Below, piece by piece: positions 8,031-64,000 of a stretch of 64,000 nucleotides of DNA. The stretch's first letter is position 1, and each line of letters starts with the position of its first letter. Source of the DNA: an uncultured Rhizobiaceae group bacterium (GTDB taxonomy: Bacteria > Pseudomonadota > Alphaproteobacteria > Rhizobiales > Rhizobiaceae). The position numbers and the translations under genes were made by a program. The stretch covers positions 124,001 to 188,000 of the forward strand of contig CANMVS010000011.1 in NCBI GenBank assembly GCA_947501445.1, in the 5' to 3' direction. The notes below the pieces were generated by a model. That model was not told the DNA's origin and did not search any database. It was given only the letters and a program-made list of their open reading frames with translations.

Positions 8031-8429
8031 TTAACACCAGGGCTTGCGTTTACCTTCCCACGGGCGCGCAAGTCCTTCCTCAATGAGGATTGCGCCAAAG
8101 TCTCGGCCATCTACCACGATAACGGCCAGCGTGCGGCCGTACCGATCCGTCATCCTGCCGGTATCCGGATCGCCTCGAACAATCTCAAAATTCCCATCAC
8201 CCAACAATTCAACAGCACGTTCCTTTGCATCGAGCGCCAGCTTTAACTCAGCGTCACATTTGTGGCCTCTGATTTCGGCTGTGTCTATGTTGGCTATCCG
8301 GATTTTCTCACCATCAACATGAACGGTGTCGCCGTCGATGACGCGAATATCTGCGGCCTATGATGGGTTGGCAATGCAGATGGCCATTGCGATAGCTGTG
8401 AAAAGACAATGTGCAAACTGAAGTATCAT
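8031..8429 (-). pseudogene. exported thermonuclease-like (SNase) gene with in-frame TAG
   Basis: Reading from the ATG at 8429 gives a signal peptide (MILQFAHCLFTAIAMAICIA, then NPS), a TAG codon at 8358-8360, then a complete staphylococcal-nuclease-like domain. That domain reads ADIRVIDGDTVHVDGEKIRI, then NIDTAEIRGHKC, TDRYGRTLAVIV and ARPWEGKRKPWC, with TAA at 8031-8033. SNase proteins are exported phosphodiesterases that degrade DNA and RNA using Asp, Arg and Glu of the IDGDT, TAEI and DRYGRT regions, all visible here. The TAG is codon 24, exactly at the predicted signal-peptide junction, so the mature domain is intact but cannot be made with its signal unless TAG is read through. The start overlaps the stop of the upstream gene (ATGA), implying co-transcription. 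Confidence 0.75.
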
Positions 8430-9429: not shown

Positions 9430-10605
9430 ATGACAGATACGACCAAACCGGACATTCGTCCGGCGAATCCCCGTTTTTCTTCTGGTCCTTGCACCAAGCG
9501 TCCCGGTTGGACGCCTGACGTTCTGTGTGATGCCGCCCTTGGCCGCTCGCACAGAGCCAGGATTGGCAAGGGCAAACTCAAACAGGCAATTGATCAGACG
9601 CGTGCCATACTTGGTGTGCCTGATGATTACCGTATCGGCATTGTGCCGGCGTCGGATACCGGTGCCGTTGAAATGGCCCTTTGGTCAATGCTTGGCCAGC
9701 GCGGTGTCCAAATGGTTGCCTGGGAATCCTTTGGCGCCGGATGGGTTTCAGACGTTGTGAAGCAACTCAGGCTTGACGATGTCAAAACGCTGGAAGCCGA
9801 ATACGGATTGCTGCCCGATCTTGACAGCATTGAATTTGACCGCGATGTCGTCTTCACCTGGAACGGCACCACATCCGGTGTGCGCGTTCGTGATGGTTCC
9901 TTCATCCCGGCTGACCGTGAAGGCCTGACAATTTGTGATGCAACATCTGCTGCATTTGCGCAGGATCTGCCTTTCGATAAACTCGATGTTGTGACTTTTT
10001 CCTGGCAGAAGGTGCTTGGCGGTGAGGGTGGCCATGGGGTCATCGTTCTCAGCCCGCGTGCTGTAGAGCGCCTGGAGACCTATGTTCCCGCTTGGCCGTT
10101 GCCGAAAATTTTTCGCATGACGAAGGGCGGCAAGTTGATTGAGGGCATTTTTGAAGGTGCCACGATCAACACACCTTCCATGCTTTGCGTAGAAGACTAT
10201 CTGGACGCACTTGGCTGGGCACAGGATATTGGTGGTCTGCCATCCCTGATCAGGCGGGCGGATACGAACGCACAAATCATTGCTGATTTTGTTGACCGAA
10301 CGCCATGGATTGATTTTCTGGCCGTTGACCCGGCGACCCGCTCGAACACGTCCGTTTGCCTGAAAATAGTTGATCCGCACGTTACCGGGCTTGATGATGA
10401 TGCCCAGGCAGCATTTGCAAAAAACATTGCCGCATTGCTTGAGAAAGAAGGCGTTGCGCTTGATGTGGGCGGTTATCGCGATGCGCCGGCAGGTCTGCGC
10501 ATATGGACCGGTGCTACGGTAGAAACATCCGATGTCGTGGCATTGATGCCATGGCTTGAATGGGCCTTTCAGCACCATTGGCAGGCACTCAAGGCCGCCG
10601 CCTGA
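9430..10605 (+). CDS. serC: phosphoserine aminotransferase
   Basis: 391 residues. It converts 3-phosphohydroxypyruvate and glutamate to phosphoserine and 2-oxoglutarate in serine biosynthesis, and also serves pyridoxal phosphate synthesis. The PLP-binding lysine is K194 in [15 protein letters not shown], and the N-terminus ([16 protein letters not shown]) is typical of the alphaproteobacterial form. The ATG at 9430 is chosen because the GGAAGGA of the serC leader lies at the right distance; upstream codons belong to the leader. It is followed in the same direction by serA, the next enzyme-coding gene of the pathway, after 136 bases. Confidence 0.95.
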
Positions 10606-51219: not shown

Positions 51220-52155
51220 TTATGCAATTTCCATTTCGTTGATATGGAATTTGGCGGTCAAATCACCGTCGGCGTCAAATACGCTGGCATCAACGCCGGT
51301 AAAATCGGCTACACCCTGGAAGACGTCACCAATAAATTCTGCAGCAAAAACATCAGTATTTGATATTTCCATCAACTCTTCGATCGAAAAATTGTCATTG
51401 CTGTAGTTCTGGCCGGTCTGAATGTCGACATTATAGAACTGAAATGATTCTGCATTTTCAATTACAAATGTCTGTCCGTCCGAACCATCCTTGAGAATGG
51501 ACCTGAAAGCGACCGTGCCATCGTCGAGCACCTGGATTTTATAGTCCTCTATTGTGTGTTTGAGAGCGACAACGTCTTTGCCTTCTCCCATATCCACATG
51601 GTAGGTGTCCGTGTCGTTTTCGGTCGCAGCTATTTTGAGGCGATCTCTTCCGCCACCCATGTCCATTACCCCGTCCGCATCTTTGGTCATGTGACCACTG
51701 ACGACCAGGTCGTTGCGCTCTGTTCCAACAAAGTTACTGCCGTCAAATGCTGCCGGCACCTCTCCCTGATTGAACAGGATGTTAGCACCGTCCGCACTTT
51801 TGAATGTTACGCTGGCGCCATAGGTCGGCGTATCGCCATCCTTTGACGTGATATAGGTGTATGTGACACTTCCGTCGCCGTTTTCCACCCGCTCGTAGTC
51901 AGATTCGGCATAGCTGAATTTGATCGTGTTATTGCCTTCACCCAGGTCGATTGTGGCATCAATATTGGCATCACGTGCCCGGCCGTGGTTGAAAACAAAA
52001 GTATCGTCTCCGGCACCCAGGTTTCCGACCTGATCAACATCAGCCAATACATCATACAGATTTTTGTAGTCATTCCCGTCCGTACCGTCCAGTACTCTTC
52101 CAGCCTGGGCCTGGTGAACGGTTGCAGCATAGAGTTTTGCAGCTGTACTTGTCAT
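51220..52155 (-). CDS. RTX/hemolysin-type calcium-binding-like protein, probable type I secretion substrate
   Basis: 311 acidic residues, no signal peptide. Degenerate nonapeptide motifs GAGDDTFVF, GEGNNTIKF and GGGRDRLKI recur. The C-terminus (DASVFDADGDLTAKFHINEM) is acidic/hydrophobic as in T1SS signals. No transporter gene is adjacent. Role unknown. Confidence 0.65.
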   Translation of the reverse strand: MTSTAAKLYAATVHQAQAGRVLDGTDGNDYKNLYDVLADVDQVGNLGAGDDTFVFNHGRARDANIDATIDLGEGNNTIKFSYAESDYERVENGDGSVTYTYITSKDGDTPTYGASVTFKSADGANILFNQGEVPAAFDGSNFVGTERNDLVVSGHMTKDADGVMDMGGGRDRLKIAATENDTDTYHVDMGEGKDVVALKHTIEDYKIQVLDDGTVAFRSILKDGSDGQTFVIENAESFQFYNVDIQTGQNYSNDNFSIEELMEISNTDVFAAEFIGDVFQGVADFTGVDASVFDADGDLTAKFHINEMEIA

Positions 52156-52822: not shown

Positions 52823-54043
52823 TTAGCCATCCGGCCATTCGGCATGCGCCAGGCGGTCTGCAAAATTTTCAATTCCCGCAGAATCGACATTTGCAAAGGC
52901 CAGACGCAGAAATCTGTCCTGATCAGAACCAAAGAATGCACCCGGCAGGCAGATGATGCCGTGTTCGCGCGCCAGATTTTCTGCCACAGTGACAGAGTCC
53001 AGATGTTTAAACGGGTGACGGATGTAGCTGAAATAGGCCCCGACAGACGACAGGTGCCAATCGGGCAGTTCTCCGATGACGCGTTCGAGCGTTCTGCGGC
53101 GCCGGGCAATTTCCTGGCGATTGCCCTCTCGCCAGTCGTCGAGCCGGGGCAGAGCATGGGCAATGGCGTGTTGCGGTGCGCGTGGGGCGCAAATCTGAAG
53201 ATTGTCCATGACCTTGGCCACATTGTTGATTATCTGCGTTCCGGCGGTAATGGCACCAAGCCGGTGTCCGGGAATGCAAAAGGACTTGGAAAAGCTGTAA
53301 AGGCCAATCAGGTGATCCCGCCAATCCGGACGATTGAAAAGATCATGTGGTTTTGCCCTGTCAGTCGGCAGAAAATCGCGATAGGTCTCATCGACAATCA
53401 GCCAGATATTATGGGCCATACACAGACCAAACAGGGTATCCATCAGACCCGCCGGGTAGATGGCACCCGTTGGATTATTGGGCGTTACACAGACAATTGC
53501 CTTTACATCCGGGGTAATGGCTGCTGCCAGTCTGGCCGGATCCGGCAGGAAACCGTTTTCAGCACTGGCCGCGACGCTCCGGGTGTTAATGCCCAGCATG
53601 GCCAGTGTCGTATCATGGTTGAAATAAAACGGTGTGATCAACAACACAGCATCTCCGGCACCGGCGACCGTCAGTGCTGCGGCAACGAACGCCTGGTTAC
53701 ACCCGGCAGTAATATGAACTTCACTGCTGCCAAATTGGCTGCCATAGGTTTTTTGAAGGTCATTTGCATAGGCTTTGCGCAACAGGTCTTCACCCTCGAT
53801 GTCACCATAACCCAGAAGGTCAGTGCGACTTGAAGCCTGCGCCAGCTGTTCCATCAACAATGGATGAGCCGAATAACCAGGCACTGCCTGTGACAGATCT
53901 ATCAGCGGACCAAACCGACCGTCATAAAGGGCGGCGGATTGCTGCACGCGCGGGATGGGTGGCGCGCTGAGCGCGTCAACGGTGTCATTGATCGGAGCGG
54001 CAGTAATGATGAAACCTCCATCAGGTGTGTCGTATCGTGTCAC
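52823..54043 (-). CDS. class I/II PLP-dependent aminotransferase
   Basis: 406 residues. PLP lysine K253 lies in LYSFSKSFCIPGHRLGA, with D218 in IWLIVDETYRDF and N190 in VTPNNPTG. Divergent from the LysR regulator of the catabolic operon, so probably in the same regulon, removing or adding an amino group in that pathway. Confidence 0.9.
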   Translation of the reverse strand: MTRYDTPDGGFIITAAPINDTVDALSAPPIPRVQQSAALYDGRFGPLIDLSQAVPGYSAHPLLMEQLAQASSRTDLLGYGDIEGEDLLRKAYANDLQKTYGSQFGSSEVHITAGCNQAFVAAALTVAGAGDAVLLITPFYFNHDTTLAMLGINTRSVAASAENGFLPDPARLAAAITPDVKAIVCVTPNNPTGAIYPAGLMDTLFGLCMAHNIWLIVDETYRDFLPTDRAKPHDLFNRPDWRDHLIGLYSFSKSFCIPGHRLGAITAGTQIINNVAKVMDNLQICAPRAPQHAIAHALPRLDDWREGNRQEIARRRRTLERVIGELPDWHLSSVGAYFSYIRHPFKHLDSVTVAENLAREHGIICLPGAFFGSDQDRFLRLAFANVDSAGIENFADRLAHAEWPDG

Positions 54044-54233: not shown

Positions 54234-55127
54234 ATGAGAATTTCCGGATCCGATTTACACCTGTTGACTGTCTTTGACTGCGTCGTGCGTAATGGCGGTT
54301 TCTCCGCCGCGCAGGTCGAGCTGGGGCTGAGCCAGCCAACAATATCCAACCATATTACTGCCCTTGAAGAACGTCTGGGTATCAAATTGTGCCAAAGGGG
54401 CCGACGTGGGTTCATGCTTACGGAAAAAGGGCAGGTTGTCCATACCGTGAGCAAAGACCTGTTCGCATCGATTGGCGACAGCTCAGGCAAACTTGCAGAA
54501 TTACGTGGCAGTATGGTGGGGTCCCTTCGGGTGGCAACAGTGGATTGCATATCCAGCGATGATACGAATAAATTGCCTGATGCAATTGGCGCATACGTAA
54601 AGCACGCGCCATTGATCAGGCTTGAGTTATCGCAACAACGACCACAGGAAATCCTGCGAAAGGTCATGGATGGTGGATTGCATGTGGGCATAGGTGGTTT
54701 CGACGCCACCATTCACGGGCTTGAATTTGTAAGTCTCTACAGGGAGCAGCATTCATTTTATTGTGGAAACAAACACCCGTTGTTTGCAATTCCCGATGCC
54801 CGAATTTCGGACGATCAATTCCAGCAAAGTGCGCGTATTGACCGCAGTTACTGGAGCCAGCTGCGTCAACGCGAATTACAGATACGTGAGAGTGACCTTT
54901 CCGTTCACGAGATCGAATCGCAATTGATGATCGTCCTCTCCGGGCAGTACATCGGTCTGTTGCCTGACCATCTGGCACGTTCCTACGTGGCGGCCGGCCG
55001 CCTTCGCAGGTTTGAACGTAACCAGGAACCCTATGTGTGCGAGATCCAGATGGTGACCAAATCGGGCAATAAGCCACTGGTCATCAAAACCTTTTGCGAT
55101 ACGCTGGCGGCGGCACACCAGCCCTGA
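54234..55127 (+). CDS. LysR-family regulator 3 (catabolic locus)
   Basis: 297 residues from ATG 54234 (MRISGSDLHLLTVFD). Winged helix-turn-helix about 5-62 (VVRNGGFSAAQVELGLSQPT). Upstream of and co-directional with the long operon, and divergent from the aminotransferase; likely activates both. Confidence 0.88.
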   Translation: MRISGSDLHLLTVFDCVVRNGGFSAAQVELGLSQPTISNHITALEERLGIKLCQRGRRGFMLTEKGQVVHTVSKDLFASIGDSSGKLAELRGSMVGSLRVATVDCISSDDTNKLPDAIGAYVKHAPLIRLELSQQRPQEILRKVMDGGLHVGIGGFDATIHGLEFVSLYREQHSFYCGNKHPLFAIPDARISDDQFQQSARIDRSYWSQLRQRELQIRESDLSVHEIESQLMIVLSGQYIGLLPDHLARSYVAAGRLRRFERNQEPYVCEIQMVTKSGNKPLVIKTFCDTLAAAHQP

Positions 55128-55259
55128 TCCCGGTAATTGCAGCGGTCTTACATTTGAATTTTCAAATATAAGCGTTGATACAGCGTTATTGATGGTTGTG
55201 ATCCGGACCGATAATTGTGGCTGCAAATGACCCTTTGCAGCAGTCCCCAGGAAAACCGC

Positions 55260-56222
55260 ATGAATACTATTGCTGAACGATCACTGAACCAGCCGCTCGG
55301 TGGCAACCAGATGCCAAGGTTCGCAGGCGACGCCACCATGATGCGATTGCCGGGACAGGAGAGTGCAGAAGGGCTGGATGCGTGTTTTGTCGGTATTCCA
55401 ATGGATATTGGAACATCAAATCGCGCCGGAACACGCTTTGGACCACGGGCGATACGGGCGGAAAGCAGCATGCTGCGCCCCTTCAATATGGCGACCGGCG
55501 CTGCGCCTTTCAGCCATATGCAGGTGGCTGATATTGGCGATGTTGCGATCAATACCTTTGACCTCAAAAAAACCGTCGACATCATCACCCGGGCCTATGG
55601 TGGTATTCTGGACTGTGGCGCTGTGCCGCTGACACTGGGCGGTGACCATACGCTGACCTATCCGGTGCTTCGTGCCATTGCCGCAAAACACGGACCTGTG
55701 GCGCTGATCCACGTGGATGCTCATGCGGATACCAATGATGTCATGTTCGGCGAAAAAATCGCCCATGGCACACCCTTTCGCCGGGCGGTGGAGGATGGGC
55801 TGCTCATCAATAACAAGGTTTTTCAAATCGGGCTGCGTGGCACCGGTTATGCGCCAGATGATTTCGACTGGGGGCGCAACCAGGGCTTCAGTGTCGTTCC
55901 GGCGGAAGAATGCTGGCACAAATCGCTGTCACCTTTGATGGCGGATATAAGGGCGCGGATTGGCGATGCACCGGTCTATCTGACCTATGACATTGACAGT
56001 CTGGATCCGGCGTTTGCGCCGGGTACCGGTACGGTCGAAATTGGCGGATTGACAACAATCCAGGGCCTTGAGATCGTTCGAGGATGCGCTGGTCTTAATC
56101 TGGTCGGTGGGGATCTCGTTGAGGTTTCCCCGCCGTATGATCCAAGCGGGAACACGGCGCTTATTGGCGCAAACCTGCTTTATGAAATGCTGTGTGTTCT
56201 GCCAGGGGCATCCAGCCAATAA
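55260..56222 (+). CDS. agmatinase-like ureohydrolase
   Basis: 320 residues. The two-manganese site is complete: H130 (GGDHTLTYP), D153/H155/D157 (HVDAHADTN), D244/D246 (YDIDSLDPAFAPGTGT). The family hydrolyses guanidino compounds (agmatine, guanidinobutyrate, guanidinopropionate, formiminoglutamate) to urea and an amine. The substrate cannot be told from sequence. ATG at 55260 with AGGA upstream; first of the operon. Confidence 0.9.
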   Translation: MNTIAERSLNQPLGGNQMPRFAGDATMMRLPGQESAEGLDACFVGIPMDIGTSNRAGTRFGPRAIRAESSMLRPFNMATGAAPFSHMQVADIGDVAINTFDLKKTVDIITRAYGGILDCGAVPLTLGGDHTLTYPVLRAIAAKHGPVALIHVDAHADTNDVMFGEKIAHGTPFRRAVEDGLLINNKVFQIGLRGTGYAPDDFDWGRNQGFSVVPAEECWHKSLSPLMADIRARIGDAPVYLTYDIDSLDPAFAPGTGTVEIGGLTTIQGLEIVRGCAGLNLVGGDLVEVSPPYDPSGNTALIGANLLYEMLCVLPGASSQ

Positions 56223-56253
56223 AACGGCGATAAACAAACAACTCCAAAGGGAA

Positions 56254-57339
56254 ATGAACATGCTTAGCACTATCACCAGACGGCGATTTCTCACCACGAC
56301 AGCGGCCACGGGATTGGCCGCCTTGGCAGCGCCAGCCATCGTTCGCGCCGCCGGAGAACCACTGAAAGTCGGTACTTACGGGGGCTATTTTCAGGAATCT
56401 TTTGACAAGCATATTTATCCTGATTTTACCAAGGACACAGGTATTCAGATCGAGTCGATCAGTGAACCGACAGGGTCGGCGTGGCTTGTGCAGTTGCAGG
56501 CCGCCGCACGCGCAGGGCAGGCCCCGGCTGACGTTTCCATGATGACGCAAACAGCCAATACCAAGGGAGCCAAGGAAGGGCTCTGGATGCCTTTGGACAA
56601 CGCCAAGCTGGAAAATACCTCAGTATTGCCTGAGCATTTTGTCCGCAAATATGGAGATGGATCCATCAACGCGGTTGGTGCTGTTTCCTGGTATATTACC
56701 CTGGTTAGCAATACGGATGTTTATCCCGAGCCCCCAACGTCCTGGAAAGTGCTTTGGGAGCCGCAATATAAGGATACGCTCGGCCTCTTGGCCAAGGTCG
56801 ACAATTCGTTCCTGTTGGAAGTGACCGCCAAGACCTGGTTTGGTGGCACCGAAATTCTCGATACCGATGAGGGCATCCTCAAGGTGATGGACAAACTGGC
56901 TGAAGTAAAGCCAAATGTGCGCCTGTGGTACCGCGATGAGGGTCAGTTTCAGCAGGCGCTTCAGTCGGGCGAAATTCCGATGGGTCAATATTACCATGAC
57001 GTGACCGGCCTGGCTGCGGCAGACGGAGAACCTGTACGTTCCACGTTCCCGATAGAAGGCGGTATTCTTGATTCGGGCTCATGGTGTGTTCTTAAAACGT
57101 CGAAACGCCAGGACGAGGCACAGGTGTTCATCAACTATATGTGCCAGCCTGCCATTCAGGCGAAACTGTCACGCAAGGTTGGAACAGCACCAACGGTACC
57201 GCGCGATCTGACTGATCTGACGGACGCGGAATTTGCCTCGGTTTCCAGCCCGATACCGCCGATTATTCCACGCTATGACCTTTACAGCACCAAGGGTGAC
57301 TGGCTCAATCAGAAATGGTCAGAGCTCATCGCAAGCTAA
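56254..57339 (+). CDS. extracellular solute-binding protein, polyamine-type ABC uptake
   Basis: 361 residues. A twin-arginine-like signal (TITRRRFLTTTAATGLAALA) and a PotD/PotF-class fold (VGTYGGYFQESFDKHIYPDF). ATG at 56254 is three bases from AAAGGG, so ATG 56260 is an alternative. It delivers a small cation-like compound to the transporter encoded next. Confidence 0.88.
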   Translation: MNMLSTITRRRFLTTTAATGLAALAAPAIVRAAGEPLKVGTYGGYFQESFDKHIYPDFTKDTGIQIESISEPTGSAWLVQLQAAARAGQAPADVSMMTQTANTKGAKEGLWMPLDNAKLENTSVLPEHFVRKYGDGSINAVGAVSWYITLVSNTDVYPEPPTSWKVLWEPQYKDTLGLLAKVDNSFLLEVTAKTWFGGTEILDTDEGILKVMDKLAEVKPNVRLWYRDEGQFQQALQSGEIPMGQYYHDVTGLAAADGEPVRSTFPIEGGILDSGSWCVLKTSKRQDEAQVFINYMCQPAIQAKLSRKVGTAPTVPRDLTDLTDAEFASVSSPIPPIIPRYDLYSTKGDWLNQKWSELIAS

Positions 57340-57416
57340 ATCGGCCTGATTTAAGTTATACACCGGGCAGGTGAAATGCCCGGTGACCTTTATTGTTGCG
57401 TAGATTGGAGCCGTGC

Positions 57417-58484
57417 TTGTCAGATCAATCCAGTGGTCTTGAACTGCAAAAACTTACAATGAATTTTGGCACTGTGCGCGCCGTTGATGATGTTGATCTG
57501 GCACTGCCTGAAGGGCAATTCGTCTGTTTGCTCGGCCCGTCAGGATGCGGCAAAACCACGTTGCTGCGGCTTATTGCCGGCCTGCAGACACCCACCAGCG
57601 GCGATATTGTCTTTAATGGCCGCTCGATTGTGGATGTCCCATCGCACAAGCGCGATTTTGGTATGGTGTTTCAGTCTCTGGCACTGTTTCCGCACCTGAC
57701 AATTGCTGAAAATATAGCCTATTCGTTGCGCATTCGCGGCCAGTCTGCGGCACAGACAAAGGCGCGTGTTGATGTGCTTTTGGACATGGTGCACATGTCT
57801 GGCGTCGGAGACCGCCGCATCACCCAGTTGTCGGGCGGCCAACGCCAGCGTGTTGCGATTGCACGTGCCCTGGCGATTAGTCCACGTCTGTTTTTGCTGG
57901 ATGAGCCGCTTTCTGCACTGGATGCGAAATTGCGTGAGGCCATGCAGGTCGAGCTGCGTCAGCTGCAAAGGGACCTGGGTATCACCACAATTGTTGTAAC
58001 CCATGATCAGCGCGAAGCCATGACCATGGCCGATCATGTCGTCATCATGAAGGATGGCAAGGTGCAGCAGAATGGTTCGCCGCTGGATATATACCGTAAA
58101 CCCGCGACAGCTTTCGTCGCCGATTTTATTGGCTCAAGCAATTTATTGCCCTGTCTGGTGACGGGCAATTCGGTTGTCAGCGTTTTTGGCCAAACGGTTA
58201 CCATTGCCAATATGTCAGATGATCTGAAAACAGGTGATGATGCGGTTCTCTCGGTAAGGCCCGAAAACCTTCATATACATACTGATGGAAGTCATTCGGC
58301 GATGAATATCGCCGCGACGGTCACATTCATCAGGGACCTCGGTTCACAGGTGGAGATCATGCTCACCCATGGCAATCACCAGCTTGTTGCAACAATGACG
58401 CCAAAAGACCGGCCCGGCGTTTCCATTGGTGATACGGTCGCCGTGGAATTTTCCGGTGATGCCTGCACGGTGGTGCCGGTATGA
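57417..58484 (+). CDS. ABC transporter ATPase, PotA-like
   Basis: 355 residues from a TTG at 57417 with GGAG seven bases upstream; a longer reading to 57393 lacks a ribosome site. Walker A GPSGCGKTT (40-48), signature LSGGQRQR (138-145), Walker B LFLLDEP (158-164), and a C-terminal TOBE-like domain. Powers uptake with the two permeases. Its stop overlaps the next ATG. Confidence 0.9.
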   Translation: MSDQSSGLELQKLTMNFGTVRAVDDVDLALPEGQFVCLLGPSGCGKTTLLRLIAGLQTPTSGDIVFNGRSIVDVPSHKRDFGMVFQSLALFPHLTIAENIAYSLRIRGQSAAQTKARVDVLLDMVHMSGVGDRRITQLSGGQRQRVAIARALAISPRLFLLDEPLSALDAKLREAMQVELRQLQRDLGITTIVVTHDQREAMTMADHVVIMKDGKVQQNGSPLDIYRKPATAFVADFIGSSNLLPCLVTGNSVVSVFGQTVTIANMSDDLKTGDDAVLSVRPENLHIHTDGSHSAMNIAATVTFIRDLGSQVEIMLTHGNHQLVATMTPKDRPGVSIGDTVAVEFSGDACTVVPV

Positions 58485-59356
58485 CAGACGCGAAGATGAG
58501 CCGTCACGATCAGGGGTTTGCAGGCCGGGTTCTCCTGCCGGCCTATCCTACAGTGATGCTGGGCCTGTTTTTTCTGATCCCGCTGTTGATCATGTTGTCG
58601 GTCAGCTTTTTCCATCGGGTCGAGGGCGCCTTTTATGAGCCCGCCTTCGAGTTTTCCAATTATGCGCGGTTTGTTGATCCGTTCTTTATCAAGATCATGG
58701 GCTTTTCAATTGGTCTGTCCCTTTCGGCCGCGCTGATAGCCGTGATGATCGCCTTCCCCTTTACCTATCTGCTGACCCGCTCCGGCCGCAGCTTACAAAT
58801 TGTCGCTCTGGTTTTTCTTCTGGCCGTGCTGTCGCTGTCCGAGGTCATCATCGGTTTTTCCTGGTCAACGCTGTTGTCGCGCACAGCCGGGATTTCAAAT
58901 CTGTTTGTTGCCCTGGGGCTGATGGAGCGGACTGCCGCCTATTATCCCAGCCTGCCTGCACTTGTCATCGGACTTGTCTATCTGAGCTTTCCCTATACGG
59001 TACTGGTTTTATATCCATCGCTATCACGGCTTGACCCGGAATTGTCGGAGGCCGCCCGCATGATGGGTGCATCACCCGCCAAGACCTTTTTTACCGTGGT
59101 GGTGCCAGTGATGCGGCGAACGATCATGAGCACCATAATCCTGGCTTTCGTCTTTACACTTGGTGCCTACATTCTGCCTCAGACACTTGGAAAACCGCCC
59201 CATTGGACCCTGTCTGTGCACATCACGGATCAGGCCATATTTGAGGCCAACCTTCCCTTTGCCGCAGCTATGGCAATCCTGCTGTTGCTCGTATCGCTGG
59301 TTATGGTTGCGATAACGCTGTTGATGGGCAATGACAGCAAAGGAGCAAAGGGCTGA
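58481..59356 (+). CDS. ABC transporter permease 1, PotB-like
   Basis: 291 residues with six membrane helices and the EAA loop EAARMMGASPAKTFFTVVVP that docks the ATPase. ATGA overlap with the ATPase gene; its last base is shared with the next start. Confidence 0.9.
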   Translation: MTDAKMSRHDQGFAGRVLLPAYPTVMLGLFFLIPLLIMLSVSFFHRVEGAFYEPAFEFSNYARFVDPFFIKIMGFSIGLSLSAALIAVMIAFPFTYLLTRSGRSLQIVALVFLLAVLSLSEVIIGFSWSTLLSRTAGISNLFVALGLMERTAAYYPSLPALVIGLVYLSFPYTVLVLYPSLSRLDPELSEAARMMGASPAKTFFTVVVPVMRRTIMSTIILAFVFTLGAYILPQTLGKPPHWTLSVHITDQAIFEANLPFAAAMAILLLLVSLVMVAITLLMGNDSKGAKG

Positions 59357-60153
59357 TGAAGCTGATCCGCGCCATCTTCATGCTACTTGTCCTGTGCTTC
59401 ATGTCCGCACCCATATTGGTGGTGCTGGGTGTTTCCGTGAATGAGAAAAAACGACTGCTGTTTCCGCCGCAGGGATTTTCCCTCAACTGGTATCTGGAGC
59501 TTTTTACACAGCAGGCCTGGTTCAACGCACTGATGAACTCGGTGATTATCGCCTTGCTCGCCAGCCTGTTGGCGGTTTCGGTGGCATTGCCCGTGGCCCT
59601 TTATTTATGGCAGCGCAACAGCGTCTTTGCACGTATGCTTTTTGGGCTTGGTCTTGCCCCTTTTATGTTGCCACCTGTTATCACAGCCCTTGGCCTGCTG
59701 ATTTTCTGGGTATCGGTCGGTGGATCAGGTCATATGGCAGCGACAATCATCTCGCATGGCGTATTTCTGGTGACATTGCCGCTGGTCACCATTTCACTTG
59801 GGCTTGAATCCATGAACCGTCAATTGATTGAGGCTGCGCGCACGATGGGTGCTGATGACAAGACGGTTTTCCTGACCGTCATAAGGCCACTCATTACGCC
59901 CTATATTGTGTCCGGTTTCGCCTTTGCCTTTGTGCTCAGTCTCAACGAGTACATCATTGCCTATATGGTCGCAGGCTTTACGGTGGAAACGCTGCCGATC
60001 AAAATATTCAACTCGTTGCGCTATGGCTATACGCCTATCATGGCGGCCGTGGCTGTGCTCTTTGCGGCAGTTTCCATCATTGTATTTGGACTGGTTGCCC
60101 GATTTGGTGACCTGCCGCGCCTGCTTGGAGCGGCGCCCAAAGATGTCGAATAG
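59356..60153 (+). CDS. ABC transporter permease 2, PotC-like
   Basis: 265 residues, six helices, EAA loop EAARTMGADDKTVFLTVIRP. Completes a polyamine-type importer (SBP, ATPase, two permeases). Confidence 0.9.
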   Translation: MKLIRAIFMLLVLCFMSAPILVVLGVSVNEKKRLLFPPQGFSLNWYLELFTQQAWFNALMNSVIIALLASLLAVSVALPVALYLWQRNSVFARMLFGLGLAPFMLPPVITALGLLIFWVSVGGSGHMAATIISHGVFLVTLPLVTISLGLESMNRQLIEAARTMGADDKTVFLTVIRPLITPYIVSGFAFAFVLSLNEYIIAYMVAGFTVETLPIKIFNSLRYGYTPIMAAVAVLFAAVSIIVFGLVARFGDLPRLLGAAPKDVE

Positions 60154-60163
60154 GATACAGTCG

Positions 60164-60961
60164 ATGAAACGTGTTGCGGTTTCTCAGATGGCAGGCATTG
60201 TGGGAGATAATGCGGCAACAATGGCGCAGGTTATCGCTGATATTGAAACCGCCGCCGCGCGGGACGCAGACCTGTTGATATTCCCGGAAGCCATCATGAC
60301 CGGCTATTATCGCTCGGACCTGAAAGCCGAGCATATCCCGCCTGTTGACGACTGGCTTGTCGAGTTGCAGGAGCGGGCAAAAAACAGCCACCTGGCGTTG
60401 ATCATCGGTACGCTGCGGGCTGTCGACAACGGCATGCGCAACAGCGCAATAGCCATCAATGAAAACGGGATTGTCGTGGCACGCTACAACAAGCGGGCAC
60501 TCTACAGCGCCTGGGAGCAGAACAATTTTATTGCAGGCACGGATTTTGACATTGTTGAACTGGCAGGCATACGCACCGGTCTCCTGATCTGTTATGACAT
60601 TGAGTTTCCTGAGTTTTCACGTGAGTTGGCACGCGGCGGTGCGCAGCTGATCGCCACCCCGACTGCGCTGATGGCGCCGGGTGATCAGATTGCGCAGGTG
60701 CTGGTACCGGCGCGTGCGATCGAAAATCAGGTTTTTGTGGCCTATGCAAATCGTGTGGGGGTCGAAGAGAACCTCGTCTATATCGGTCAATCCAGTATTG
60801 TCGGTCCAGATGGGGCTATGCTGGCAAGGGCTGGGAATGAACCCGCATTAATTTTTGCAGACCTTGATTTTTCCCGAACTGACATGGTCAGGGCAGAGAA
60901 CAGTTATCTGGATGATATGCCCATGATAGATCGGTATTTTGATGGAAAGACCCATGGTTGA
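60164..60961 (+). CDS. carbon-nitrogen hydrolase (nitrilase superfamily amidase)
   Basis: 265 residues from ATG 60164 with AGGA eight bases upstream (ATG 60143 overlaps the permease). The Glu-Lys-Cys triad is E42 (FPEAIMTGY), K110 (RYNKRALYSAWEQ) and C143 (LLICYDIEFPE). The sequence resembles aliphatic or omega-amino amidases and carbamoylputrescine amidases. Beside nitrile hydratase it would hydrolyse the amide formed, taking the place of a signature amidase. Confidence 0.85.
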   Translation: MKRVAVSQMAGIVGDNAATMAQVIADIETAAARDADLLIFPEAIMTGYYRSDLKAEHIPPVDDWLVELQERAKNSHLALIIGTLRAVDNGMRNSAIAINENGIVVARYNKRALYSAWEQNNFIAGTDFDIVELAGIRTGLLICYDIEFPEFSRELARGGAQLIATPTALMAPGDQIAQVLVPARAIENQVFVAYANRVGVEENLVYIGQSSIVGPDGAMLARAGNEPALIFADLDFSRTDMVRAENSYLDDMPMIDRYFDGKTHG

Positions 60962-62006
60962 TACCGTTCCCGATACCATGCTGGCAGCGCTTTGCGCAGC
61001 ACCCGGTGCGCCTTTGGAAATATCGCGTATTGATGTTCCAAAACCGGGGCGCGGCGAAATAATGGTGAAGATGGAAAGCTGCGGTGTCTGTTTTTCCGAC
61101 CTGCATCTGCGCGATGGGGACGAGAACCTGCCGGATGCGCTTTATCCGCTGGTGCTTGGCCATGAGGGTATTGGACGCGTCGTCCGGCATGGTGCGGGTT
61201 GTGCCGATGCGCCAGACATCGGCCAAAGAGTTGGGCTGCCCTGGCTTTATGACACCTGTCTTGATTGCAAACCCTGCCTGACGGGGGCAGAAACCTTTTG
61301 TGCGTCGCAAAACGCCCGTGGTATCCAGCGCCATGGTGCATTTGCACAATATGCGATCCTGGACAGCCATTTTGCCTGCGTGATCCCGGACGAAATCGAT
61401 CCCATTGCCGGTGCCCCGCTGCTGTGCGCAGGATTGACTGCCTGGTCTGCGTTAAAAAAAACCAGAATTGCACCGGGCCTGCGGGTTCTGATCATTGGCG
61501 CCGGTGGACTTGGACAATACGCAATCCTGATTGCCAAGGCCTACGGCGCCCACGTTATTGTTGTTGATTCTGAAGCTTCAAAACTGGATGAGGCTGTACG
61601 CCTGAAGGCCGATGAGGTCTATCTGGCGGGACCGCAGGTCGGAAAAGCCATTCAACAGGCTGGCGGTGCGGATGTAACCGTCAATTTTGCACCCAGCGCT
61701 GCGGTCTGGCAGACCATCGAAACCGCCGTTAATCCGATGAGTGATGTTGTCGCCGTTGCGCTGGTTCATCAGCCGGTTGATCTGTCGATGATGTGGCTGA
61801 TTGACGGTGGTCACCGGGTATTTGGTTCCTCGGTTGGCTCACGGCAGGAATTGCGCGAGTTTCTGGCGTTCTCGGCGCGAAACCCACTTGATACAGATGT
61901 TGAAACCATCGCATTTCGTGATGTGAACACAGCGCTCGACCGGCTGAAGGCTGGCAGGGTTACCGGGCGGTTGTGCATCGACTTTGCAGATGCGGACCAG
62001 CTTTGA
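60954..62006 (+). CDS. zinc-dependent alcohol dehydrogenase family protein
   Basis: 350 residues. Catalytic-zinc residues include C43 (ESCGVCFSDLH) and H70/E71 (GHEGIG); structural zinc cysteines are C102, C105, C108, C116 (TCLDCKPC and ETFC). Rossmann loop IIGAGGLGQYA. Overlaps the amidase gene by eight bases. It would interconvert an alcohol and aldehyde in the same pathway. Confidence 0.9.
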   Translation: MVDTVPDTMLAALCAAPGAPLEISRIDVPKPGRGEIMVKMESCGVCFSDLHLRDGDENLPDALYPLVLGHEGIGRVVRHGAGCADAPDIGQRVGLPWLYDTCLDCKPCLTGAETFCASQNARGIQRHGAFAQYAILDSHFACVIPDEIDPIAGAPLLCAGLTAWSALKKTRIAPGLRVLIIGAGGLGQYAILIAKAYGAHVIVVDSEASKLDEAVRLKADEVYLAGPQVGKAIQQAGGADVTVNFAPSAAVWQTIETAVNPMSDVVAVALVHQPVDLSMMWLIDGGHRVFGSSVGSRQELREFLAFSARNPLDTDVETIAFRDVNTALDRLKAGRVTGRLCIDFADADQL

Positions 62007-62041
62007 GGCTGGTGATATTTCCTTATAAAAAGGGGTGATTC

Positions 62042-62689
62042 ATGGCCAAAAAATCACACGGGCCCAATAAACACGGACATGATCATGGGAACGATGACGG
62101 GCACGACCATGCGCATGATCCGCTGGAGGAGGGCGCTGCCCTGCGTGTTCGTGCGCTTGAAGAGATCGTTGTGGCCAAAGGCCTGGTGGATCCTGACGCG
62201 CTGGATGCCATCGTTGAATATTATGAGCGCGAAACGGGCCCGCGCAATGGTGCACAGGTCATTGCGCGTGCCTGGACAGATCCCGACTTCAAAGACTGGC
62301 TTTTGAAGGACGGTACAGCGGCAATCAACAGTCTTGGTTTTAGCGGTTATCAGGGTGAGCATATTCGTGTGATCGAAAATACTGACACTGTTCACAATGT
62401 CGTCGTGTGCACGCTTTGCTCGTGTTACCCGTGGCCTGTGCTGGGGCTGGCGCCTGCCTGGTATAAAAGCCCGGCCTATCGCTCGCGCGTTGTGCGCGAA
62501 CCAAGGGTTGTTTTGCAGGAATTCGGACTGAACCTTGCCAGCAGCGTTAAGGTTCGTGTGTGGGACAGCACTGCGGAGGTGCGCTATCTTGTTTTGCCCA
62601 GGCGTCCGCCCGGTAGCGAAGGCATGGATGCGCCAGAGCTGGCAAATATCATCACCCGCAATGGAATGATTGGCACAGCGTCGGTTTAA
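62042..62689 (+). CDS. nitrile hydratase alpha subunit, cobalt type
   Basis: 215 residues. The metal-binding motif VCTLCSC (C123, C126, S127, C128) followed by [10 protein letters not shown] places it in the cobalt class (Thr, where iron-type has Ser). The first 26 residues are His-rich ([16 protein letters not shown]), a possible metal-collecting tail. Nitrile hydratase hydrates nitriles to amides. Confidence 0.95.
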
Positions 62690-62736
62690 CCCCAATCAAC
62701 GTGGTGGCCAACCAGTGGGGCACGAGAGGAAATTGC

Positions 62737-63399
62737 ATGAATGGCATTCATGATATGGGCGGTATGCATGGTTTTGGCAAAGTGCAGGTCGATGATGATA
62801 CGGTGTTTGGTGCCGACTGGCAGCGCCGTGCTTTTGCACTGGTGGAGACCCTGGCCTGGGCCGTGCCCTATAGTACCGATCAACACCGTTATGCAATCGA
62901 GTGTCTTGAGCCGGTGAATTATCTGAAACACGACTATTTTGAAAACTGGATCGAGGCGACAGAAACTTTGTTGATAGAAGCCGGTCTTGTTGATCGCAGC
63001 GAGCTGGAGGCGGGCGTCAAACGCTTTGACATCAACTGTGAAAACCACGCGCCGGTTGGGCCTCAAACACTTGTCGCGGCTACCAGAGCAGGTGCAGAGA
63101 TGATTTTCCCCGCCGATACATCAACTGCCGCGTTTCATGTTGGCCAGCGGGTTCGGGTTCTCAACACTCATCGTCAGGGGCACACCCGTGTTCCGGGTTA
63201 TGTGCGCGGAAAGTGCGGATTGATTATTCGCAATGGGGGGATATTTCAGTTTGCAGATTCGCTGGCAGCGGGTAACGGGCCTGATCCGCAACACTGCTAC
63301 ACGGTCGAATTCACAAGCACAACTTTGTGGGGAGACGATGGGTCACAAGGCGACACGATATGTCTTGATTTATGGGAGCCCTACCTTGAAGCCATCTGA
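62737..63399 (+). CDS. nitrile hydratase beta subunit
   Basis: 220 residues starting MNGIHDMGGMHGFGKV, the typical beta start; the C-terminal half is an SH3-like barrel (FHVGQRVRVLNTHRQGHTRV, then PGYVRGKCGLI). ATG at 62737 preferred over GTG 62701. Forms the active enzyme with alpha. Confidence 0.95.
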   Translation: MNGIHDMGGMHGFGKVQVDDDTVFGADWQRRAFALVETLAWAVPYSTDQHRYAIECLEPVNYLKHDYFENWIEATETLLIEAGLVDRSELEAGVKRFDINCENHAPVGPQTLVAATRAGAEMIFPADTSTAAFHVGQRVRVLNTHRQGHTRVPGYVRGKCGLIIRNGGIFQFADSLAAGNGPDPQHCYTVEFTSTTLWGDDGSQGDTICLDLWEPYLEAI

Positions 63400-63769
63400 A
63401 CAGCATCGTGCTGCCCTTGAACTTGCGCGGGCAAATCTGCCGAGGAGAGACGAGGATGCACCTTTGTTTCGCGCACCATGGCATGCGCGTATTTTTGCTC
63501 TCATAATTGCGCTGGTGAAGAATGAGCACCTCGGCTGGAAACCGTTTCAAGAAAACCTTGTTGTTGTTCTTGCTCGCCACCAGTCCGCCGATCAGGATCA
63601 AAGTGATACGCAGGTCGAGTTTGAGTATTTCGATTGCTGGCTGATTGCTGCGGAAATGACATTGCTTGAGGCCGGGTTTGTTGCCGAAGACGAGATTTCC
63701 AAGCATATTGATGATATTCGCGCCATGGTGGCGCAAATACGTGCGGATCAGTTGTCTCATCATCACTGA
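63386..63769 (+). CDS. nitrile hydratase accessory (activator) protein
   Basis: 127 residues from a TTG at 63386 with GGGAG seven bases upstream; an in-frame ATG at 63338 (GGGGAG upstream) would lengthen it and overlap beta by 62 bases. The segment FRAPWHARIFALIIALVKNE and HLGWKPFQENLVVVL match the beta-like activator family that swaps with beta to insert cobalt. The C-terminus is helical. Confidence 0.85.
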   Translation: MKPSEQHRAALELARANLPRRDEDAPLFRAPWHARIFALIIALVKNEHLGWKPFQENLVVVLARHQSADQDQSDTQVEFEYFDCWLIAAEMTLLEAGFVAEDEISKHIDDIRAMVAQIRADQLSHHH

Positions 63770-63814
63770 AACTGCGTACAGCTGCAAGTTGATTTCAGAA
63801 AGTGCTGTTGGGAT

Positions 63815-64000
63815 ATGGACAGGAAAAAAGCCCTGATTGTCTGGGGAGGCTGGGAGGGGCACACGCCCGAGCGCAGCGCAAATATTGTTCGCGATATGCT
63901 CGAGCCGCATAAATTCGATGTGACAGTCGAAAACCACACGCGTGCCTTTGCAGATCCCGGGTTGGTCGGATTTGATCTGATCATTCCTGTCATTACCGAT
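63815..64000 (+). CDS. ThuA-like protein, 5' end (runs off window)
   Basis: The 62 visible residues (ALIVWGGWEGHTPERSANIV) match the start of ThuA-domain proteins (glutamine-amidotransferase-like fold, often with sugar utilisation). Continues the operon; the gene is incomplete here. Confidence 0.75.
   Translation, partial: MDRKKALIVWGGWEGHTPERSANIVRDMLEPHKFDVTVENHTRAFADPGLVGFDLIIPVITD

Follow-up and report, generated by a model that had tools for sequence, protein, structure and literature searches.

A rare, conserved gene set joins a nitrile hydratase to a guanidinobutyrase-type ureohydrolase and an ABC importer in a Rhizobiaceae bacterium

We analysed a 64,000-nucleotide stretch of DNA (the window; bases 124001-188000 of contig C11) from the genome of an uncultured Rhizobiaceae bacterium (6.8 Mb, 110 contigs). 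In the final 11 kb of the window, eleven plus-strand genes (54234-63769) follow one another with short gaps or overlaps, and an aminotransferase gene diverges from them. The run comprises a LysR-family regulator, a guanidinobutyrase (GbuA)-type ureohydrolase, a four-component ATP-binding cassette (ABC) importer, a carbon-nitrogen (CN) hydrolase, a zinc-type alcohol dehydrogenase, and the alpha, beta and accessory genes of a nitrile hydratase. This gene set is a real, rare and conserved unit that adds a new variant to the known nitrile hydratase operons, and we propose, at a probability of roughly one in two, that it is a patchily spread catabolic operon through which a cationic guanidinoalkyl nitrile would serve the cell as a source of nitrogen and carbon. 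An earlier note, made from the letters of this DNA, had described ten or more closely spaced genes in one direction beside a divergent aminotransferase; both descriptions hold, and every gene it named is present with an open reading frame (ORF).

Evidence for the unit comes from its recurrence. A neighbourhood search of the kind that the earlier note had proposed yielded seven further loci in which importer, guanidino hydrolase and nitrile hydratase stand together, so that the outcome by which the note would have been refuted, a gene set that is not kept together, did not occur. We scanned GTDB genomes with the nitrile hydratase alpha protein and compared the best 80 of 91 loci in six frames with every protein of the window, at E 1e-8 and with at least half of the query covered. 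Five of these 80 loci, which are also the five best alpha matches, carry a GbuA-type gene (83-86% identical) together with the substrate-binding protein, the ATPase, both permeases, and the alpha, beta and accessory genes of the hydratase; they belong to Pseudohalocynthiibacter aestuariivivens, a Sulfitobacter metagenome-assembled genome (MAG), an uncultured Pelagicola MAG, an uncultured Roseovarius and Roseovarius spongiae (L047-L051). In these five Roseobacter loci the dehydrogenase always lies on the divergent side, as does the CN hydrolase in four, and a LysR gene was found in four, none being detected in L049. In three of them (L047, L048 and L050) a permease gene ends 3-18 bp before the alpha gene, which speaks for one transcript, and the gene run of the window is likewise presumed to be transcribed as an operon.

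Sampling by taxonomic rank returned two more loci. Within the family of the Pseudohalocynthiibacter genome, 100 of 394 genomes have an alpha match at 1e-80, and apart from that genome itself only one (G819, 79%) exceeds 70% identity; its locus, L199, also carries the gene set. In the window's own order an alpha match at 1e-60 occurs in 153 of 397 genomes, and among the matches listed none except the window's own exceeds 64% identity. Across a class sample of 385 genomes, alpha matches passing 1e-93 were found in two, the window's own and G1266, which belongs to another family (f206). The locus of this genome (L261) matches the window gene for gene, divergent aminotransferase included, minus the dehydrogenase, with identities of 65% for the aminotransferase, 78% for LysR, 83% for GbuA, 84% for the substrate-binding protein (82% without the complexity filter), 74% for the ATPase, 82% and 86% for the permeases, 63% for the CN hydrolase, and 81%, 62% and 59% for hydratase alpha, beta and accessory protein. 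No dehydrogenase lies between CN hydrolase and alpha in L261, where about 1.5 kb past the aminotransferase was fetched, so that a farther one is possible.

Taken over all eight loci, the window included, GbuA, the ATPase, both permeases and the three nitrile hydratase genes are always present. The substrate-binding protein is whole in seven and broken in L199, LysR is present in seven (not L049), the CN hydrolase in seven (not L051) and the dehydrogenase in seven (not L261). The membership that the earlier note had drawn up therefore stands in its core and loosens at two genes, since the dehydrogenase is not constant and the aminotransferase adjoins the set in only two of the eight loci, the window and L261. 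GbuA is 83-86% identical in all seven other loci, LysR 51-78% in six, the dehydrogenase 64-68% in six, and the CN hydrolase 63% in L261 and 34-42% in the others carrying it. Recurrence of the set at seven other loci, with protein identities of 34-86%, means that its genes are not grouped by chance. Of the window's proteins, GbuA (83-86%) and hydratase alpha (73-77%) are the best kept in the six Roseobacter-type loci, ahead of the substrate-binding protein, the permeases and the CN hydrolase, which suggests a functional tie between the two. The operon appears to have spread patchily, probably by horizontal transfer.

The ureohydrolase (55260-56222) passes the NCBIfam agmatinase model TIGR01230 (204.2 bits, cut-off 174.3), a label that probably misleads given the closeness of the protein to the Pseudomonas aeruginosa GbuA structure 3nio. 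Its nearest known structures are 3nio (498.6 bits; 70.2% identity, 219/312), the 3-guanidinopropionase 3nip (301.5 bits; 45.8%, 140/306) and, third, the proclavaminate amidinohydrolase 1gq6 (240.1 bits). Met161 of 3nio, where 3nip has Tyr157, is a Met in the window enzyme and also in L041-L044, L047-L051 and L261; this position is said, in work attributed to Lee et al. 2011, to set specificity. We assign the enzyme to the guanidinobutyrase type, strongly as to family and as a prediction as to activity, and on the same assignment agmatine was rejected as its substrate. PMC9772407 reports that a human enzyme sharing 60% identity with P. aeruginosa GbuA cleaves guanidino acids and not agmatine. 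Because this relative takes guanidino acids and not agmatine, the free acid would be the expected substrate of the window enzyme, and nitrile and amide would therefore have to be removed beforehand.

The surroundings of GbuA-type genes vary. In P. aeruginosa, gbuA is part of the arginine dehydrogenase pathway, to judge from a paper title, whereas the window gene sits with a nitrile hydratase. A gene 84% identical on plasmid p2 of Gemmobacter fulvus (L041:9989-12463) adjoins an opposite-strand gene annotated as succinate-semialdehyde dehydrogenase, in keeping with gamma-aminobutyric acid (GABA) as the product. Another relative (74%, in L044) lies beside a 5-guanidino-2-oxopentanoate decarboxylase and an aldehyde dehydrogenase, neighbours that indicate an arginine transaminase-type route.

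The hydratase genes follow in the usual order, alpha (62042-62689), beta (62737-63399) and accessory (63338-63769, start uncertain), and the family models all exceed their cut-offs: TIGR01323 (293.1 bits for alpha, cut-off 249.85), PF02979, PF21006 and PF02211 (N- and C-terminal domains of beta) and TIGR03889 (54.9 bits for the accessory protein, cut-off 46). The alpha subunit has the metal-claw motif VCTLCSC, read as Co-dependent in PMC12646544, and by this motif we class the hydratase as Co-type, in agreement with the earlier note. In these respects it resembles Co-type clusters with a P14K-type accessory protein, from which it differs in that the genes of an importer and a guanidinobutyrase belong to the same gene run; it differs further in having a CN hydrolase in place of a signature amidase, and in the clade-specific beta residues described below. 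The His-rich tail ascribed to alpha turned out to be N-terminal, with seven His within residues 6-25, and is common to the orthologous alphas, which start with a shorter His-rich stretch; the accessory protein ends in three His. A second nitrile hydratase is encoded in the source genome (C10:84702-85244), and neither GbuA nor a CN hydrolase was found near it in the 20 kb fetched (L008). Two further places match part of the alpha profile, each a tandem pair of ORFs of 87-95 amino acids, at G000:C7:255612-256135 (L009:9606-9893 and 9971-10240) and C7:192751-193292 (L010:7655-7918 and 8071-8337); by eye they look like putative nitrile-hydratase-like leader peptides of precursors of ribosomally synthesized and post-translationally modified peptides.

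In a tree of 122 alpha rows, built before L261 was found, the window, L047-L051 and L199 form one clade (support 100/99), present in all 200 bootstrap trees counted in a bootstrap that had not fully settled. We aligned 111 beta rows, seven from this clade and 104 others, with fragments dropped by a coverage rule. Position 37 is Glu or Asp in 7/7 clade members and 1/104 others, position 41 is Trp or Phe in 7/7 and Phe in 7/104, and position 66 is Asp in six of the seven (Asn once) and in 0/104; His50 and Gln171 occur in 7/7 and 0/104, and Phe68 in 7/7 and 10/104. The beta subunit of L261 aligns with the same letters as the clade at 37, 41, 50, 66, 68 and 171. Invariant in all 7 and all 104 rows are Arg51, Tyr67 and Trp71, which we take to be the equivalents of the conserved Arg, Tyr68 and Trp72 of PtNHase, consistent with an alignment to 3qxe. 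By that alignment and the PtNHase numbering, positions 36, 40, 47 and 50 presumably correspond to Phe37, Phe41, Leu48 and Phe51 of PtNHase; position 37 of the beta subunit falls at Pro38, adjoining the gate residue Phe37. An AlphaFold model of the window beta subunit has a mean predicted local distance difference test score of 83.5, with residues 1-13 below 50. In PtNHase, Phe37 is a ligand gate that steers selectivity (PMC7193024, PMC7587978), and Phe41 and Leu48 lie at the tunnel entrance (PMC9297474). The clade-specific residues point to a beta pocket that may be remodelled and more polar, and we hypothesize that this pocket could bind the guanidinium group.

The importer consists of a substrate-binding protein (56260-57339), an ATPase (57393-58484, start codon uncertain) and two permeases (58481-59356 and 59356-60153). 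All four components have a family likeness to the spermidine/putrescine importer PotABCD, so that the polyamine-type label of the earlier note holds at the level of family, and all fall far below the Pot equivalog cut-offs (PotD 61.2 bits against 582, PotA 343.9 against 482, PotB 113.3 against 348, PotC 125 against 326), where it fails. The CN hydrolase (60164-60961) is a predicted amidase by PF00795, amidases being its best solved kin, though that it acts on amides here is a guess; no other amidase candidate was found in the scanned genes of the operon, which bears out the earlier remark that it replaces the usual signature amidase. In a tree made before L261 was known it sits unplaced on a long branch, and among the matches listed no CN hydrolase above 43% identity was found in other sampled genomes of the window's family. 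The dehydrogenase (60954-62006, start uncertain) is assigned by family matches, and the aminotransferase (52823-54043, minus strand) is a class I pyridoxal phosphate enzyme by PRK07550 (531.9 bits, cut-off 366). In three Roseobacter genomes searched whole (L047, L050 and L051) the best aminotransferase matches are 42-44% identical, the one in the L047 genome lying about 70 kb from the operon locus; outside the two set loci that have it, the aminotransferase occurs beside a related operon that has no hydratase.

We found this hydratase-free operon by scanning 151 genomes of the window's family for the CN hydrolase; both permeases lie beside it in 21 of the 29 listed loci of other genomes. We refetched 20 loci with more flank, 18 chosen for adjoining permeases and two without, and in 18 of the 20 a ureohydrolase, a substrate-binding protein, an ATPase, two permeases and the CN hydrolase follow in this order on one strand (with 2-3 kb between ureohydrolase and substrate-binding protein in L247, L248 and L253). 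The aminotransferase is present in 12 of the 20, and neither a nitrile hydratase nor a zinc dehydrogenase was found in the 20 fetched stretches. The window shares with this cassette, known for instance from plasmids of Shinella sp. H4-D48 (L046) and Neorhizobium petrolearium (L045), the importer, the gene order, the CN hydrolase and often the aminotransferase, but it falls outside it by its other ureohydrolase type (only 42-47% identical), its nitrile hydratase and its zinc dehydrogenase. The substrate-binding protein of the window is 67-72% identical to those of the hydratase-free loci, 57-62% to those of the five Roseobacter loci and 82-84% to that of L261. The type seen in the window and G1266 looks like a hydratase-free operon in which GbuA and nitrile hydratase have been installed. 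Counted by permeases plus CN hydrolase, the hydratase-free operon (L045, L046, L239-L256) occurs in at least 21 of the 150 other sampled genomes of the family. In L045 and L046 the ureohydrolase has an unusual metal loop, DAHCDTxGxFD, and in L045 (4993-11977) an iron-containing alcohol dehydrogenase stands where the window has the zinc one.

In the pathway that we propose, the importer, to go by its distant likeness to PotABCD, would take up a cationic guanidinoalkyl nitrile; the Co nitrile hydratase, matured by the accessory protein, would hydrate the nitrile to the amide; the CN hydrolase would convert the amide to the acid; and the GbuA-type enzyme would cleave this guanidino acid to yield urea and an omega-amino acid, with LysR (54234-55127; PF00126, PF03466) sensing the substrate or an intermediate. 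Because GbuA sets the substrate, the likeliest chain would run from 4-guanidinobutyronitrile through 4-guanidinobutyramide and 4-guanidinobutyrate to GABA and urea, and 4-guanidinobutyronitrile is probably the imported compound. The dehydrogenase and the aminotransferase would be accessory steps. The earlier note had supposed that guanidino, nitrile and amide groups are stripped in concert; the guanidinobutyrase type of the hydrolase strengthens this logic, in which the substrate and the activities are our predictions. It had also known of no described pathway with this exact set, and in the portions of the open-licence literature that were searchable, including PMC8567248, PMC5770400 and PMC13255781, no operon with this combination was found. 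PMC5770400 lists nitrile hydratase for the majority of the Thalassobius and Shimia genomes that it compares, and PMC13255781 names guanidinobutyrase in a reference title. Guanidinobutyramide does appear in three papers, two of them on Streptomyces polyketides to go by titles and the starts of abstracts, and aminobutyronitrile appears in the open-licence literature as well.

Several observations weigh against this proposal. The names guanidinobutyronitrile, guanidinobutanenitrile, cyanopropylguanidine and guanidinopropionitrile are unmentioned in the open-licence literature searched, and we accordingly know of no natural source. None of the Pot cut-offs is reached by the importer, and the dehydrogenase has no place in the chain yet is carried by seven of the eight loci. 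The CN hydrolase is divergent (at best 43% identical in the tree, 63% to its L261 orthologue), none was detected in L051 even at E 1e-3, and the sole other sampled genome of the window's genus (G085) has no close relative of it. In L199 (12774-16620) the substrate-binding protein is in two pieces with its middle missing and the dehydrogenase lies in two overlapping pieces of different frame, breaks that reflect either decay or an assembly error. GbuA-type genes also occur with no nearby nitrile hydratase and outside this operon, in L041, L042, L043 and L044. As for the beta subunit, the clade-specific residues may reflect shared descent and not adaptation, which would be a sufficient alternative, and the PtNHase residue beside Phe37 packs partly into the core and is not clearly part of the tunnel (PMC7587978).

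The alternative to be taken most seriously, one that we judge unlikely though well short of negligible, is that two separate functions are linked here, uptake and use of arginine-like guanidino acids (importer, aminotransferase and GbuA) and a module for small neutral nitriles (nitrile hydratase, CN hydrolase and dehydrogenase), held together by shared regulation. It would account for the 18 of 20 fetched family loci in which ureohydrolase, importer and CN hydrolase keep their order with no hydratase, and for the GbuA relative of L044 in its arginine transaminase-type neighbourhood. It accords poorly with L047, L048 and L050, where the hydratase comes directly after a permease while the divergent side holds CN hydrolase and dehydrogenase, so that the companions of the hydratase are importer and GbuA and not its amidase; and importer loci with a hydratase have the GbuA type in eight of eight cases, whereas the 18 without it have the other ureohydrolase type. 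Chance proximity, for which one could cite that each family is common by itself, is refuted by the same set in eight loci and has practically no probability left. An arginase-family gene lies near the hydratase in six of the 80 loci, namely the five set members and L082, whose match is 36% identical and which besides the hydratase matches only the ATPase; among 40 comparison hydratase loci of 10-20 kb, the 20 top-ranked from each of the family and order samples, it does so once, in L199, itself a set member.

Two other substrates or directions of flow deserve mention. With a cyanoguanidine-type compound, the hydratase would form guanylurea, the CN hydrolase would remove the carbamoyl group and the arginase-family enzyme would split guanidine, the same order of enzyme classes as in our proposal. 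The nitrile of acetamiprid is an N-cyano group, and the window ureohydrolase scores 498.6 bits to GbuA against 151.0 to 7esr_A, labelled 'Probable agmatinase 2', which we take to be a guanidine hydrolase. A Co-type nitrile hydratase of Ensifer does hydrate acetamiprid (PMC12646544), in favour of such a route, but the tested GbuA relative refuses compounds that lack an acidic group (PMC9772407). We rejected the cyanoguanidine route, which we rate improbable, since its sequence marks the arginase-family enzyme as a guanidinobutyrase. Rated lower still is a biosynthetic operon in which the nitrile arises inside the cell from an aldoxime, for instance to make an auxin-like acid. Known nitrile hydratase clusters often belong to the aldoxime-nitrile pathway; here importer and GbuA would have no role in it, and no aldoxime dehydratase match was found in the window's genome, a weak point because control genomes are silent too.

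Uptake and hydration of a guanidinoalkyl nitrile, our preferred reading, has a possible parallel in other loci. In Ruegeria halocynthiae (L056, 1532-13032) a PuuR-like regulator, an importer and hydratase alpha, beta and accessory genes stand together with an FAD oxidoreductase; the substrate-binding protein is PotD/F-like (191.5 bits to PotF, cut-off 636), and on the other side lie a CN hydrolase, an S58 peptidase and a succinate-semialdehyde dehydrogenase (TIGR01780, 724.5 bits, cut-off 646.35). The locus resembles the window in its Pot-type importer ahead of the three hydratase genes and its nearby CN hydrolase; it differs in that no guanidino hydrolase was detected in it and its alpha subunit falls outside the window clade. 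It is possibly a putrescine-like nitrile route which, to go by the succinate-semialdehyde dehydrogenase of this single locus, may also end near GABA. L206 likewise has an importer with a PotD-like substrate-binding protein ahead of its hydratase; its neighbours, an amidohydrolase and an enoyl-CoA hydratase, weigh against our proposal, with no sign of GABA use among the genes scanned. The hydratases of L056 and L206 both lie outside the window clade, so that importer and hydratase are combined in more than one hydratase lineage, which supports, and does not prove, cationic nitriles as substrates.

To our knowledge, few nitrile hydratases have a known natural substrate. Here the genes kept side by side point to a guanidino acid at the product end of the route, which makes it possible to guess the start and to test it with a single synthetic compound. 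If our proposal is true, bacteria feed on a class of cationic nitriles, natural or man-made, that has gone unnoticed, and industry would gain a hydratase whose tunnel is unusual and may accept charge. More tentatively, and with less confidence than we place in the proposed pathway, one natural role of a Co nitrile hydratase might be to assimilate imported cationic nitriles, nitrile analogues of agmatine in the window and of putrescine in Ruegeria, both ending at GABA. Cationic nitriles would then occur in soil and sea, for example where haloperoxidases act on amines or amino acids (PMC13054786), a link that is speculation, and the beta subunit would have evolved an acidic, polar tunnel for them.

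Spacing within the run is tight, at 132 bp between LysR and ureohydrolase, 37 between ureohydrolase and substrate-binding protein, 53 from there to the ATPase (subject to its uncertain start), 10 between the second permease and the CN hydrolase if the latter starts at ATG 60164, 35 between dehydrogenase and alpha, and 47 between alpha and beta. ATPase and first permease overlap by 4 bp, the two permeases by 1, and CN hydrolase and dehydrogenase, like beta and accessory gene, also overlap. A GC-rich hairpin of nine pairs (57361-57385, plus strand, from a consensus scan) lies between the substrate-binding protein and ATPase genes and is a possible attenuator of the genes downstream; the hairpin scan gave 19 terminator-like sites against a mean of 12.5 in shuffles, hence a weak signal, and the promoter scan was uninformative (10 sites against a mean of 8.7). 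A search for plasmid relatives of the window DNA returned no match. On the same strand, 45 bp past the accessory gene, a ThuA-family gene begins (63815-64000; PF06283; L007:1816-2463) and runs beyond the window end; its membership of the operon is doubtful. Elsewhere in the window, an ORF of 311 amino acids on the minus strand (51220-52155), with no Pfam match, has the Asp/Gly-rich N-terminal motifs GTDGNDYKN and GAGDDTF, which by eye have the look of haemolysin-type calcium repeats.

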